Part shown: piece after piece, positions 3,927 to 64,000 of the stretch
Layout: every line of letters begins with the position of its first letter
Position numbering within the stretch: position 1 is the stretch's first letter
Origin: an uncultured Loktanella sp.
Lineage (GTDB): Bacteria; Pseudomonadota; Alphaproteobacteria; Rhodobacterales; Rhodobacteraceae
Assembly: GCA_937132065.1 (NCBI GenBank)
Contig: CAKZNT010000054.1
Span: 54,949-118,948, forward strand
Direction of reading: 5' to 3'
DNA: 64,000 bases
Notes under the pieces: model-generated
What the model was told of the DNA's origin: nothing
Seen by the model: only the letters and a program-made list of their open reading frames with translations
Database searches by the model: none
Program-made: the position numbers and the translations under genes

Positions 3927-5690
3927 TCACAGATCCATGTAGACGTGGGTTTCGTGCTTTGCACCCGGATGGGTCACAGCGCCAAGACGGGTTGCCCCCA
4001 CAAGCTGCGCATATTTCCAAAGCGCACCAGAGGCATAGTTCGTCGGACGAGCGCCCGTCCATGCGGCGCGGCGTTCGGCCATATCCTCATCAGAGACATC
4101 AACCGACAACTCACCCGTAATTGCGTTCATCGTGATGACATCACCATCCTTGAGCAAGGCAATCGGGCCACCATGCGCGGCCTCGGGGCCAACATGACCC
4201 ACACAGAACCCACGGGTCGCCCCAGAGAAGCGGCCATCCGTGATCAGCGCCACTTTCTTGCCCATGCCCTGCCCCGAAAGAGCGGCAGTCGTGGACAACA
4301 TCTCGCGCATACCAGGGCCGCCAGCCGGGCCTTCGTTGCGGATGACAAGCACTTCACCCTCTTTGTAAGTGCGCGCCTTCACAGCGGCAAACGCCTCTTC
4401 TTCGTTCTCAAAGACGCGTGCGGGGCCAGTGAACGTCTGTTCTTGGGTCGACATGCCCGCAACCTTTACGATCGCGCCATCGGGGGCGAGGTTGCCCTTG
4501 AGACCAACAACGCCGCCAGTGCGGGTGATTGGTGTCTCGACGGAATAGATGACGCGGCCATCTGCTTCGCCCGTGATTTCGTCCAGTTCCTCACCGATCG
4601 TGCGGCCAGTGGCGGTGATGCAGTCTTCGTGCATCAGGCCAGCCTTGCGCAATTCCTTCATCACAACAGGCACGCCGCCCGCTTCATAAAGGTCTTTTGC
4701 GACATACTGCCCGCCGGGCTTCAGATCGACAAAGTATGGGGTATCCTTAAAGATGTCGCACACGTCATTGAGATCAAAGTCGATGCCAGCTTCATGGGCA
4801 ATCGCAGGCAGGTGCAAACCGGCATTGGTCGAGCCACCGGTGCAAGCCACAACGCGGGCCGCGTTCTCAAGGGATTTGCGGGTCACGACATCGCGGGCGC
4901 GGATGTTCTTGGCGATCAGGTTCATCACCGCCTCGCCAGAGGTGAACCCATACTGGTCGCGGCTTTCGTATGGGGCTGGCATGCCCGACGAATTCAGAAG
5001 CGCAAGACCAATGGCCTCGGAGACACAGGCCATCGTGTTGGCGGTAAACTGGCCACCACACGCACCCGCAGACGGACAAGCGATCCGCTCGAGCGTGGCA
5101 AGAGCCGCGTCAGACATATCGCCATTCTGGTGACGGCCAACGGCCTCGAACATGTCTTGCACGGTCAGGTCACGCCCGATGTATTCGGCAGGCACATCAG
5201 CACCCGCATGCACACGACCCGGCAGGATCGAACCACCGTAGATGAAAACAGACGGCACGTTCAAACGGACCATCGCCATCATCATCCCCGGAAGCGATTT
5301 GTCGCAGCCCGCAAGTCCAACCAGCGCGTCATAGCCATGGCCGCGCATCGTCAATTCAACGGAATCGGTGATCGCCTCGCGCGATGCCAGTGAAGAGCGC
5401 ATGCCCTCGTGGCCCATCGCGATACCGTCAGTCACGGTGATTGTGGTGAATTCGCGCGGCGTGCCATAGGCCGCCTTCACGCCCATTTTGACCGACTGGG
5501 CCTGACGGTTCAGGGCAATGTTACAAGGGGCCGCTTCGTTCCAGCAGGTCGCAACACCAACAAATGGCTGTGCAATCGCATCTTCATCTAGACCCATCGC
5601 ATAGTAGTAGGAGCGGTGCGGCGCACGGCTTGGCCCGTCGGTGACGTGGCGGCTGGGGAGATTTGATTTGTCAAACTTGACCTTAGACAT
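3927..5690 (-). CDS. ilvD: Dihydroxy-acid dehydratase
   Basis: Converts 2,3-dihydroxy-isovalerate and 2,3-dihydroxy-3-methylvalerate to the 2-keto acids in valine and isoleucine synthesis (leucine via the valine branch). I start it at [14 protein letters not shown] (5690), giving 587 aa, a normal length; the track's 100-residue extension is antisense to a divergent gene. Fe-S and active-site signatures are present: [40 protein letters not shown], and the C-terminal [12 protein letters not shown] second member of the IlvD/EDD superfamily lies at 51440-53149 in the galactose cluster; this one has the motifs of the true biosynthetic enzyme. Confidence 0.95.
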
Positions 5691-5798
5691 GCTGCGTTCC
5701 TTCTCAAAAACTGTTGCGCGTGTTGTAAATAAGGGGAGTGGTGCGCACAAGTCGGAACTGTAGTTGCGTCCAATCGGCTGGCGGGTCAAAAACAGTGC

Positions 5799-6704
5799 AT
5801 GAAAGCGCCATATCACGCCATGCTCCAGTTTCGACGCCCCGCAATGGGGCAAACCGATCTCGGGGCGGTTCTGTCGATCATTGTGGCGATGGAACTGGCG
5901 TTTGTGCTGGGGCCGCTGGTCGTTCTGGCAATCCTGCCTGCGCAGATGGGCGCGCTGTTCGAGGTTGGCGACACGGCCTTTGGCGTGGTCCTGCAACTTG
6001 TTTCATTCGGGCTTTATGTCGTGGTGCTGGGCGGGCTTGTGAAGCGACTGCACGGGCGGGGGCTTTGGTCGATGATCGGGCCGCTTGGCGATACGATCAC
6101 GGCGTTCAAGGCCGCGGGCTGGGCCGTTGGGCTGGTCATATTGGCGCAAACCGTGCTGCCGCCAGCGATCGACGCCAGCGAATTTAGCGTCATGCGGCCG
6201 CTGCTGGGGTGGCTTGCATGGATGCCCGTCGTGCTGGTTGCATTGGTGATCCAGACAGGCGCCGAGGAAATCTACTTTCGGGGCTACCTGCAACAACAAC
6301 TGGCCTGCTTGTCCGACAAGCGATGGATCTGGATGGGGCTGCCATCCCTGCTCTTCGGGGTCGGGCACTATATGAACGGCTTTGGGCCTGCGGACGGGGT
6401 TATCTACGCGATTTGGGCCACGTTGCTAGGGCTTGCTTGCGCGGACCTGACGGCACGCACGGGCAATATCGGGGCGGCGGTGGGGTTGCACACGGCCAAC
6501 AACCTGTTTGCCTTTGTGCTGACAGGGGTCGAGGGCTGGCCGTCCAACGGGCTGGCGCTGTTTCTCTACCCATACGAAGACCCGATGATTTACGACTATG
6601 GGCTAGATACCTTGCTTGCGCCTTGGGCGATCTTTGAACTGCTGCTTGCGGCGCTCATGGTGCTCGTGATGTGGCTCGCTGCCAGAATCGCGATCAAGCG
6701 CTGA
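5799..6704 (+). CDS. CPBP-family intramembrane metalloprotease
   Basis: Multi-pass membrane protein of 301 aa with about eight hydrophobic segments. The family motifs are clear: [12 protein letters not shown] (glutamate pair plus Arg), then [10 protein letters not shown] and a final histidine in [10 protein letters not shown]. These define the CPBP (CAAX protease and bacteriocin-processing) glutamic/metallo-peptidase family in the inner membrane. Substrates of most bacterial members are unknown. It is divergent from ilvD and 54 bp upstream of accD, so it may have its own promoter. Three in-frame Met codons (5799, 5820, 5844) could be the start; the hydrophobic core begins just after the last. 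Confidence 0.85.
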
Positions 6705-59963: not shown

Positions 59964-62003
59964 GTGTTAGCCATTCAACCTGAGACCAAAATCGACATCC
60001 ATGACAATATGCGGATCACAGTGCGTGACGGCATTTCGCTATCCGCACGGGTCTGGATGCCCGCATCCGCAGAGATCACACCGCTGCCTGCCATCCTCGA
60101 GATTCTACCCTACCGCAAGCGGGACGGAACAGACGGGCGTGATGCCACGACCCATGCCCAGTTCGCCAAACACGGCTATGTCTGCCTGCGCGTTGACCTG
60201 CGGGGCTGCGGCGAATCCGAAGGGCTATTTGACGACGAATACTCCGAACAGGAGCTAAGTGATATCGAGGACGTTATCGGCTGGATCGCCGAGCAATCCT
60301 GGTGCACCGGAGCCGTCGGGATCATGGGCATTTCATGGGGCGGATTTAACGGCTTGCAAACCGCTGCACGCAGACCGCCTGCGCTAAAGGCGGTGATCAG
60401 CCTATGCTCATCGGTTGACCGGTTCGCCGACGACATCCACTATAAGGGTGGCTGTCAGCTGATGGAGAATATCGGCTGGACGGCCACGGCAACTTCCTGG
60501 TTTTCTGTGCCTCCCGACCCTGCGCTCGTGGGAGATGACTGGCGCGATATCTGGCAAGAGCGGCTCGAAAACACACCGCCCTTGATCAACAACTGGCAAC
60601 AGCACGCCAGCAAAGATGCCTATTGGAAACACGCTTCGGTTAGCGAGGACTTCTCCCGAATCCAGGCTGCGGTTCTGATCATTGGCGGTTGGCACGATGG
60701 CTATCGCAACACTGCGGCCAAATTGCTGGAGGGCGGCACAAGCGGCCCTGTTAAGGCGATCATGGGACCGTGGAACCACAAATATCCGCATCTAGCTACG
60801 CCTGCCCCGCGGATGGATTTCGTGAGCGAGGCGCTCCGGTGGTGGGATCACTGGCTTAAGGACGCGCAAAACGATGTCGAAAACGATCCTGCATACCGCG
60901 CCTATCTGATGGACGGGCTGCCACCCAAGACCAGCTATGACACACGGCCCGGTCGCTGGGTTGGCCTGCCAAAATGGCCCGCAGACGAGATCAAGCACCA
61001 GACTTTCACCCTCGGCAATGCCACATTGGGGCAAGACACGATAACAACGCCGATAGATGTCAAAACCGATGTGAATTGCGGTCAGGGGTTTGGCGAATTT
61101 TTCCCCTTCGGCTTTGGGCCAGGTGAATTGCCCGATGACCAGCGGGCAGATGATGCATTGTCCGCCTGCTTTGAAACCGCCCCTCTCCTAGAGGCAACGT
61201 CTTTGATCGGTGCGGCGCGATTGCACCTCTCCTTTTCTGCAAACACGCCCTTTGCGCAAATGGCCGCGCGGCTTTGCGATGTTGGCCCTGACGGGGCGTC
61301 TACACAGATTTCGCTCGGCATCTTGAACCTGCAATTTCGCGAAGGGTTTGAAGAGGCGAAGCCACTTGTCCCGCATCAAATCTATGACGCAACACTCGAC
61401 CTTGATCAAATGGCCTACGTCGTGCCCGAGGGGCATCGGCTGCGGCTTGCGATCTCGCCCAACTACTGGCCATTTATCTGGCCTGAACGCGGCGAGACAA
61501 CACTGACCTTGACGCAAGGGACGCTCGATCTTCCCGTATTTCATGACACTGGTCATCTCGATTGGACCTGCCCGCCGCTCGCACACACCCCGCCCACCGT
61601 TCTCAAAACGCTTTCGACTGGCCCGGAAGAAAAACGGACATTCGTCGAAGACGGCAAGTTAAAGCTGGTCATTAGCGCCGATCACGGCGAAACAGAGCAT
61701 AGCGAGCATGGATTGCGCACATCAAGCGCGATCCACGAAACGTGGTCCATAGACCAGTCAGATATAGCAAAGGCCCAAGCAGATATAGTCTGGAAACGGG
61801 CCGTGGCGCGCGACGACTTTTGCGCGTCAACCGAAGTTGTCACAAAGATGCGTAGTGACAGCGAGAGATATTACGTTACGCTAACGATCAGAGCCTTTGA
61901 TGCACAAACCTGTATCTTTGAGCGCGACTACCACGAGAGCTTCTGGCGCGACTTAACGCGCCAAGGACAGCCCTCGTTGAATTCTAAGGGAGAAACAAAA
62001 TGA
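59964..62003 (+). CDS. CocE/NonD-family hydrolase (X-Pro dipeptidyl-peptidase-like)
   Basis: 679 aa from GTG at 59964. Its GGAGG site is immediately adjacent, so the start may instead be ATG at 60009 (MRITVRDGISLSARVWMP). The core has ILPYRKRDGTDGRD, VDLRGCGESEGLFDDEY and catalytic Ser in GIMGISWGGFNGLQ, then His in GPWNHKYPH; the C-terminal jelly-roll domain follows. The family includes cocaine esterase and acyl/peptide hydrolases; here the substrate is unknown. The end overlaps the next gene by 4 bp. Confidence 0.85.
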   Translation: MLAIQPETKIDIHDNMRITVRDGISLSARVWMPASAEITPLPAILEILPYRKRDGTDGRDATTHAQFAKHGYVCLRVDLRGCGESEGLFDDEYSEQELSDIEDVIGWIAEQSWCTGAVGIMGISWGGFNGLQTAARRPPALKAVISLCSSVDRFADDIHYKGGCQLMENIGWTATATSWFSVPPDPALVGDDWRDIWQERLENTPPLINNWQQHASKDAYWKHASVSEDFSRIQAAVLIIGGWHDGYRNTAAKLLEGGTSGPVKAIMGPWNHKYPHLATPAPRMDFVSEALRWWDHWLKDAQNDVENDPAYRAYLMDGLPPKTSYDTRPGRWVGLPKWPADEIKHQTFTLGNATLGQDTITTPIDVKTDVNCGQGFGEFFPFGFGPGELPDDQRADDALSACFETAPLLEATSLIGAARLHLSFSANTPFAQMAARLCDVGPDGASTQISLGILNLQFREGFEEAKPLVPHQIYDATLDLDQMAYVVPEGHRLRLAISPNYWPFIWPERGETTLTLTQGTLDLPVFHDTGHLDWTCPPLAHTPPTVLKTLSTGPEEKRTFVEDGKLKLVISADHGETEHSEHGLRTSSAIHETWSIDQSDIAKAQADIVWKRAVARDDFCASTEVVTKMRSDSERYYVTLTIRAFDAQTCIFERDYHESFWRDLTRQGQPSLNSKGETK

Positions 62004-63292
62004 CAAATGAACTAAAGTATCTCAGCCAGCAGGTTGCACGCCAGCGCCTTGACCGTCGTAGCTTCTTGGGCCGTGCGGGCGCATTGGGCGTCTCTGCCGC
62101 CGCAGCCAGCACCCTGCTTTCCAGCGCCGTGATGGCACAAGGCGCCGTCAAGGGCGGCACAATCAAGGTTGCCGTAGAAGGCGGATCGTCCACGGACAGC
62201 CTTGATCCGGCACTTGTCACCAACTCGACAGGCACACTTGTGAACCGCCTTTGGGGCGAGCCGCTTGTTGAACTGGACGCCGATGGTGGCCTAGAGATGC
62301 GCTTGGCTTCCGAAGTGATTGCATCCGATGACGCAACCACATGGACATTCAAAATTCGTGAAGGGGTTACGTTCTCGGACGGCAAATCCCTCACCGCAGA
62401 AGACGTGCTTGCAACACTCGAGCGCCACGCTGGCGAAGACTCCAAATCGGGTGCTCTCGGTATCCTGAGCGGCATCAAATCCATGCGCGCTGACGGCAAT
62501 GCATTCATTGTTGAGCTGACGGGTCCAAACGCCGACTTGCCCTTCCTGTTGAGCGATTATCACCTGATGATCCAGCCGAACGGCGGCAAAGATGCGCCAG
62601 ACGCGGCCATTGGCACAGGGCCATATATCTTGAAGAGCGCTGAAATGGGCGTTCGCTTTGTGGCCGAAAAGAACCCGAATTACTGGAACCCTGATCTTGG
62701 GCACGCCTCTACGATCGAAGTCACCGTAATTAACGATGACACCGCACGTGTTGCAGCCCTCCAATCTGGTCAGGTTCACATGTGCACACGCGTGCCGCCA
62801 AAGGTCGCTTCGCTTGTAGGGCGCATGTCGGGCGTCGAGGTGCATTCTGTGCCCAGCGCGGGCCATTATGTCTTTATCATGCACGCCAACACAGCGCCGT
62901 TTGATAACAATGACCTGCGTCTGGCCCTGAAGTATGCGATGAACCGCGAAGAGATGGTCGATAAAATCCAACAAGGGGTAGGTAATGCGGTAACGGCCAT
63001 GTCTAATAGTCATAAAATGGCCGAAGGCACGGTGACCGAATCAAAAGAGGTTGAAGAAGCATTAGAGGCGATTCACGACAAGGTTTCCTCGATTGCTGAA
63101 ATGAACACTCATATCGCCGAAGCGGTTAAACAACAAGCAGCAACCGCCGAAGATATCGACAGAAACATTGTGGGCATTAGTCGAGTAGCCGAAGATAATG
63201 TCGGCAATGCCGCAGAAACCACACGAGCAAGTGAAGAAATGGCGACCAAAGCCAACCAATTACGCGAAATGCTAACCTCATTTAAGGTCTGA
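62000..63292 (+). CDS. Hybrid ORF: family-5 ABC binding protein joined to chemotaxis-receptor tail
   Basis: Residues 1 to about 322 are a peptide/opine-type family-5 solute-binding protein with a Tat signal (DRRSFLGRAGALGVSAAAAS), the SSTDSLDPALVTNS motif and LRLALKYAMNREEMVDKI. Such proteins are normally about 500 residues; this one breaks off at roughly two-thirds. From about residue 324 the chain is a methyl-accepting chemotaxis protein C-terminus (EALEAIHDKVSSIAEMNTHIA, VKQQAATAEDIDRNIVGIS), with AT-richer DNA. The fused product makes no biological sense: the periplasmic receptor would carry a cytoplasmic signalling helix. I treat it as a chimeric join, with the binding protein truncated. 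Confidence 0.85.
   Translation: MTNELKYLSQQVARQRLDRRSFLGRAGALGVSAAAASTLLSSAVMAQGAVKGGTIKVAVEGGSSTDSLDPALVTNSTGTLVNRLWGEPLVELDADGGLEMRLASEVIASDDATTWTFKIREGVTFSDGKSLTAEDVLATLERHAGEDSKSGALGILSGIKSMRADGNAFIVELTGPNADLPFLLSDYHLMIQPNGGKDAPDAAIGTGPYILKSAEMGVRFVAEKNPNYWNPDLGHASTIEVTVINDDTARVAALQSGQVHMCTRVPPKVASLVGRMSGVEVHSVPSAGHYVFIMHANTAPFDNNDLRLALKYAMNREEMVDKIQQGVGNAVTAMSNSHKMAEGTVTESKEVEEALEAIHDKVSSIAEMNTHIAEAVKQQAATAEDIDRNIVGISRVAEDNVGNAAETTRASEEMATKANQLREMLTSFKV
62961..62990. other. Junction 1: binding protein to chemotaxis-receptor tail
   Basis: Around DKIQQGVGNAV the sequence can be read as either partner: family-5 proteins continue MVDKI...G.G, and MCPs often have a ...QQG...AV.AM... stretch. 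Upstream DNA is GC-rich and roseobacter-like; downstream codon use is AT-richer (gcattagaggcgattcac). Exact breakpoint is not resolvable within about 20 bp. Confidence 0.8.
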
Positions 63293-63294
63293 CT

Positions 63295-63900
63295 ATGTCA
63301 CTTCAGGCGCAATATAACATTACTGAAAAAAGCATGGCGAGTTACTCGCCGCTTGATCAACTCTCTTCAACCTATCTTGCCGAGATTATTAAAAAGGGGC
63401 GAGTCGTTGTATTTGATGCAGGAGATACGTTGTTCGAGAAAGGGCACGATCTGGATTTTCACTACTATTTACTAGCGGGCAAAATATCCGTTAAAAAGGG
63501 CATGTTTTCCAGCAAGTCTGTCGATAGTAAGCAGAAGGAATCATTGCACCCTATCAACAACCTTATTCCAAGCGAGTCGAGTGTTAAAGCCCAAACCGCA
63601 GGCCACCTGTTTTTGGTGGACCCCAAGTTGCTTGATCGCGCTCTAGCGTGGAATGAGTCAAATCCGGTTAACGAAAAAAAGCGCCCACAAAATAACGCCA
63701 AATCCTCCACGCCTGTACAAGTACAGGGAAAGTTTGATGAGGATTACTTTAATTGGATGACCAGTTTACTGGAGTTTCCACTATTTCTGAATCTTCCACC
63801 TGCAAATATTACCGAGCTTTTTGACCAGTTTGCGCAGCTTCTCTACGTCAGTGTCATATGTCACCCGAAGTGGCAGTTTCACCATAACCCAATCGCGTGA
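63295..63900 (+). CDS. Cyclic-nucleotide-binding-domain protein, truncated by a join
   Basis: Starts MSLQAQYNITEKSMASYSPLDQL two bases after the chemotaxis fragment. A cNMP-binding fold can be seen (GRVVVFDAGDTLFEKGHDLDFHYYLLAGKISVKK ... TAGHLFLVDPKLLDRAL), followed by a linker and the start of a second repeat (FDEDYFNWMTSLLEFPLFLNLPPANITELFDQF). After about residue 181 the frame runs into antisense MscS sequence (LLYVSVICHPKWQFHHNPIA), so the natural C-terminus is lost. AT-rich codon use and style look gammaproteobacterial. Native to another organism, I suspect. Confidence 0.75.
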   Translation: MSLQAQYNITEKSMASYSPLDQLSSTYLAEIIKKGRVVVFDAGDTLFEKGHDLDFHYYLLAGKISVKKGMFSSKSVDSKQKESLHPINNLIPSESSVKAQTAGHLFLVDPKLLDRALAWNESNPVNEKKRPQNNAKSSTPVQVQGKFDEDYFNWMTSLLEFPLFLNLPPANITELFDQFAQLLYVSVICHPKWQFHHNPIA

Positions 63901-63999
63901 GTAGTTGGTCAATTGCCTTATTTCCCCGAACGGTATCGTATGTAAGGCGCCCAGATGGTGTCGAAGTTGAAAAGAGCGGATCGAGATCGACTCTACTGT
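63781..63999 (-). CDS. MscS-family mechanosensitive channel, internal fragment (runs off right edge)
   Basis: Absent from the ORF track. The minus strand from the right edge reads TVESISIRSFQLRHHLGAL, HTIPFGEIRQLTNYSRDWV, then MVKLPLRVTYDTDVEKLRK, the beta-domain core of MscS-type channels (LRHHxGxxHTIPFG, TNYSRDW). About 60 residues are genuine; after KKLG the frame enters the cNMP gene and stops at 63781. The gene's N-terminal part lies beyond the window and its C-terminus is lost at the join. The sequence style is alphaproteobacterial. Confidence 0.85.
   Translation of the reverse strand, partial: TVESISIRSFQLRHHLGALHTIPFGEIRQLTNYSRDWVMVKLPLRVTYDTDVEKLRKLVKKLGNICRWKIQK
63811..63840. other. 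Junction 2: cNMP-binding protein to antisense MscS gene
   Basis: ACCGAGCTTTTTGACCAG encodes TELFDQ on plus and belongs to the cNMP protein, while its complement encodes the LVKKLG of an MscS channel on minus. Both readings fit over about 20 bp, marking the seam. The strand of the coding sequence flips here. Confidence 0.75.
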
Positions 64000-64000
64000 A

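Follow-up and report, generated by a model that had tools for sequence, protein, structure and literature searches.

The right end of contig C54 is very probably a misassembly of gene pieces from three marine bacteria

De Bruijn graph assemblers of the SPAdes type build a sequence from small k up to large, and exact, constant overlaps between contig ends are the trace that such an assembler leaves at its final k. Chimeric sequence can also arise during amplification. Amplification chimeras typically contain inverted joins where there is short homology, and most template-switch microhomologies are shorter than ~21 bp. Chimeric contigs of de Bruijn graph assemblers have been described (PMC7299287, PMC8172020). 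Users of SPAdes commonly choose k = 21, 33, 55, 77, 99 and 127, and 'illusionary contiguity' is possible where coverage is insufficient (PMC8172020).

The stretch of DNA analysed here (the window, 64 kb) corresponds to bases 54949-118948 of contig C54, which belongs to a draft genome of 2.94 Mb in 92 contigs (94% complete, contamination 1.37%). Window base 64000 is the last base of C54, and what an earlier sequence-only reading had called the right edge is therefore the true end of the contig and not an arbitrary cut of the window. The tail of the contig is composed of the following features (positions are those of the window).

62000-62968, plus strand: 5' part of the gene of an oligopeptide/dipeptide ABC substrate-binding protein (SBP) of the host genus, cut at seam 1 (Pfam SBP_bac_5, E=2.9e-58)
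62948-62968, no strand: seam 1, SBP/MCP, ~21 bp, GAAGAGATGGTCGATAAAATC, reading EEMVDKI in both parents
62948-63292, plus strand: 3' end of the gene of a methyl-accepting chemotaxis protein (MCP), Oleiphilaceae-like (78% nt identity to positions 5654-5998 of locus L011, collinear)
63295-63831, plus strand: 5' half of a cNMP-binding/rhodanese gene, the next gene of the Oleiphilaceae operon, cut at seam 2 (82% aa identity to L011 6001-6525)
63811-63831, no strand: seam 2, inverted, between the cNMP gene (plus) and the MscS gene (minus), 21 bp, ACCGAGCTTTTTGACCAGTTT
63811-64000, minus strand: internal piece of the gene of an MscS-type mechanosensitive channel (PF00924) of another marine organism of Rhodobacteraceae type, open at the contig end

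The SBP part was contiguous with intact genes of two genomes of the same genus (G465 and G473, 74-75% nt identity), and both the SBP gene and the S15 hydrolase upstream of it showed host-genus matches and host GC. Along the tail GC changed from 0.574 (SBP) to 0.467 (MCP), 0.436 (cNMP gene) and 0.484 (MscS). The plus strand from 62948 to ~63831, a length of ~890 bp, matched a single locus (L011) of a gammaproteobacterial MAG (Oleiphilaceae) collinearly, with 78% nt identity. The MCP piece corresponds approximately to the final 114 codons of a 678-aa chemotaxis receptor, and the cNMP gene begins two bases past its stop. The Pfam family MCPsignal was detected with E=8e-7 in the window ORF, a value under the gathering cut-off of the family, and with E=4.4e-41 in the intact homologue. 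The designation of the next gene as cNMP-binding, proposed in the sequence-only reading, holds for the intact homologue (355 aa; in Pfam, cNMP_binding covers residues 181-263 and rhodanese matches weakly), but the truncated fragment itself, from 63295 to the seam, gave no Pfam hit, PF00027 included: in the homologue the cNMP domain begins only at residue 181, which lies immediately beyond seam 2. In the Oleiphilaceae MAG the 355-aa cNMP-binding protein with its C-terminal rhodanese-like match (L011 6001-7068) is encoded directly after the chemotaxis receptor gene. When the rest of this operon was searched for in the draft genome that contains C54, only the 888 bp of the window were found.

Translation of the minus strand from 63999 to 63811 yielded TVESISIRSFQLRHHLGALHTIPFGEIRQLTNYSRDWVMVKLPLRVTYDTDVEKLRKLVKKLG. 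The MscS beta-domain that had been recognized in the translation from the right edge proved to be real: 35 aa of MS_channel_2nd (PF00924) are present and scored above the gathering cut-off (E=9.4e-5), and the MscS of G172, a 676-aa protein from a genome of the same family and another genus, is 89% identical to the piece in aa sequence. The nearest named relatives of the 62-aa piece, on replicons of Tritonibacter, Ruegeria sp. TM1040 and Sulfitobacter, were 80-87% identical, and the range over other marine genera of the family was about 79-89% aa. It is from these relatives that the host family takes the name Rhodobacteraceae or roseobacter here. The pore-lining TM3 helix and the full ORF are absent, the contig ending before TM3, and what remains is a fragment. 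A search of 55 other host-genus genomes (E<=1e-8) did not find this MscS in any of them, nor was a second MscS copy found in the draft genome itself.

Every gene at the seams is cut mid-frame, and the C54 tail showed no mobile-element gene. Within seam 1 (62948-62968) 18 and 19 of the 21 bases agreed with two SBP relatives and 18 with the MCP relative. In the 21 bp before the seam the SBP relatives agreed at 17 and 17 positions and the MCP relative at 6, and in the 21 bp after it the MCP relative agreed at 18 and the SBP relatives at 5 and 6. By joining the two genes, seam 1 creates a 430-aa SBP-MCP fusion ORF (62000-63292). At seam 2 the sequence ACCGAGCTTTTTGACCAGTTT reads TELFDQF on the plus and KLVKKLG on the minus strand, in agreement with the roughly 20-bp stretch that had been described as coding sensibly on both strands. 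On the minus side the window agreed codon by codon with the MscS gene of G172 from 63999 as far as the Gly codon at 63813-63811, beyond which the agreement collapsed; on the plus side the match to the Oleiphilaceae gene extended to about 63831-63835 before collapsing. The inverted join reported earlier is thus there, centred on 63821, but position 63781, where the range given for it starts, is only the stop of a chance minus-strand read-through. Because the parents of the seams were judged via relatives at ~75-80% nt identity, the shared stretch, about 21-22 bp and 21 bp at the two seams, is known to about +/-3 bp. In a k-mer search, proposed in the same reading for the assembly graph and run here on the draft genome, the 18-mer ACCGAGCTTTTTGACCAG had a single occurrence in the entire draft, which is what one would expect had the other parents not been binned with it.

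The missing 3' half of the SBP gene was located near the end of another contig, C29 (36492-36650, 79% aa identity to the SBP of G033). It is followed there by a gene for a DppB-like permease, so named from its sequence. In G465 and G473 one uninterrupted stretch matched C54 61989-62969 and then C29, with ~225 bp between the two pieces that remained unassembled. The open frame that spans both SBP pieces was read directly in G465; it measures 531 aa from stop to stop. Since the intact gene of these two genomes spans both pieces, C29 is where the real genome continues after C54, and the terminal ~1,050 bp of C54 are foreign. The right end of C29 (L089) is chimeric too: the start of an ABC-ATPase gene, contiguous with its match in G019 up to the seam, runs into the end of the SBP gene, and a phage-integrase SAM-like piece, located further out, is joined to a zinc dehydrogenase. 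At the ATPase/SBP seam only ~12 bp appear to be shared, as judged via relatives from which the true parents are ~25% diverged.

The three sources, the mid-frame cuts, the ~21 bp shared at both seams, the orphan contig end and the presence of the SBP 3' half on C29 argue for artefactual joining. We consider it very probable that the last ~1,050 bp of C54 are a misassembly of gene pieces from three marine bacteria and that the gene fusion is not biology. The earlier suggestion that the DNA had been joined artificially at short shared sequences is thereby strongly supported. Of the two mechanisms then offered, k-mer misassembly fits better and template switching less well. The comparison covered 151 contig ends: 34 pairs had an overlap of exactly 77 bp and one pair an overlap of 25 bp, and the right ends of C54 and C29 did not overlap with any other end. 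From these 34 exact overlaps, and from the way such assemblers work, we infer a final k of 77; a literature search on contig-end overlaps returned nothing. The first k was presumably 21, as is common practice (PMC8172020). As k series commonly start from 21, collisions at the first k are the natural interpretation of the two seams of ~21 bp. Chance sharing of this length is common: in a random-sequence model ~2,300 shared 21-mers are expected among 1e8 distinct k-mers.

Alternatively, template switching during whole-genome amplification or in library PCR could have produced chimeric DNA molecules before sequencing, and these could then have been assembled faithfully. An inverted join at short homology, as at seam 2, is what such amplification chimeras generally look like, and the C29 seam with its ~12 shared bp, fewer than 21, speaks for this explanation and counts against the k-mer reading. 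However, ~21 bp at both seams exceeds most template-switch microhomologies, the assembly carries the k=77 overlap signature, and a foreign appearance is shared by several further contig ends, each of which apparently has a different partner. Template switching is therefore rather unlikely, and k-mer misassembly is preferred on account of the ~21 bp at both seams and the k=77 signature of the end overlaps.

Misassembly by shared k-mers probably proceeded as follows. The assembler would have been a multi-k de Bruijn program of SPAdes type, with a k series of probably 21-33-55-77. The host path would have ended inside the SBP gene, possibly triggered by low coverage. A chance 21-mer, the codons for EEMVDKI, would then have led the assembler to an Oleiphilaceae-like bacterium and its chemotaxis-receptor gene. 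Some 860 bp on, another chance 21-mer, this one inverted, would have led it to a third bacterium, of Rhodobacteraceae type, and the MscS gene of that organism. The contig would have stopped 169 bp beyond seam 2.

A real arrangement, in which horizontally acquired gammaproteobacterial DNA and an inverted MscS fragment were inserted in the host SBP gene, has in its favour that the contig as deposited runs through the segment without a break. It is nevertheless very improbable: all genes are cut mid-frame with no mobile-element gene in the tail, the SBP 3' half is on C29, and the contig ends 169 bp past seam 2 with no overlap to any examined contig end. Even slighter is the chance that the tail is a natural recombinant, in which gammaproteobacterial chemotaxis DNA and an inverted MscS piece were joined to a roseobacter-like genome through ~21-bp microhomology. 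A strain-level or binning mixture free of false joins, with the whole 118.9-kb C54 derived from another organism, could appeal to the 1.37% contamination of the draft but is hardly credible, because host-genus matches at host GC were obtained both for the SBP gene and for the S15 hydrolase upstream, and the change occurs within ~21 bp inside a gene.

Contig ends were also scanned for drops in GC as a sign of further chimeric tails. The result was suggestive only, and two low-GC ends have proper 77-bp overlaps. At the right end of C60 (L194) ~1.2 kb at GC 0.41, which carry a DinG/YoaA-like helicase, adjoin a dCTP deaminase gene with the GC of the host, and this end has no 77-bp overlap; it looks like another chimeric tail. 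An origin of the C60 tail from the same Oleiphilaceae MAG was rejected, as identity was only 40% over part of the tail. The left end of C23 (L070) has ~1.1 kb of GC 0.2-0.4 (MFS transporter and lipoprotein-like ORFs) ahead of glmS. C26 ends at its right with glmU-glmS (L147), and the start of this glmS is near-identical to that of C23. The two ends would be strain variants, with a possible foreign tail in addition. The left ends of C47, C19 and C13 (L103, L066 and L060) are of low GC and lack a 77-bp overlap to other examined ends; they may be further chimeric tails or mobile islands. Given that the same fault occurs at C29, the draft genome probably holds more chimeric ends.

As a gene arrangement, the C54 tail is an ordinary assembly artefact with no biological meaning. 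Gene callers would label the 430-aa SBP-MCP ORF as a novel fusion protein, and this ORF and the truncated ORFs on the plus and minus strands should stay out of protein databases. For curation, the last ~1,050 bp of C54 should be trimmed at about 62947. The end overlaps offer a cheap check that needs no reference: many of the sound ends that come from the graph share exactly k bases with another end, a feature that false tails lack.

Compared with the MscS channels (PF00924) of Tritonibacter, Ruegeria and Sulfitobacter, the MscS piece is alike in sequence (80-87% aa) but differs in comprising only 62 aa, cut at the seam on one side and open at the contig end on the other. With amplification and template-switching chimeras (MDA, library PCR) the tail shares short homology at the joins and the inverted orientation, and it differs from them in the ~21 bp at both window seams and in the multi-k signature of the assembly. 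With the chimeras of de Bruijn metagenome assemblers (SPAdes/metaSPAdes, IDBA-UD, MEGAHIT) it shares the joining of unrelated genomes at a shared k-mer, the position at a contig end and, as in chimeras of the kind described in PMC7299287 and PMC8172020, a true continuation that lies on another contig. From these it does not differ substantially: with two successive false joins, one of them inverted, the C54 tail is a slightly elaborate case of the same kind.
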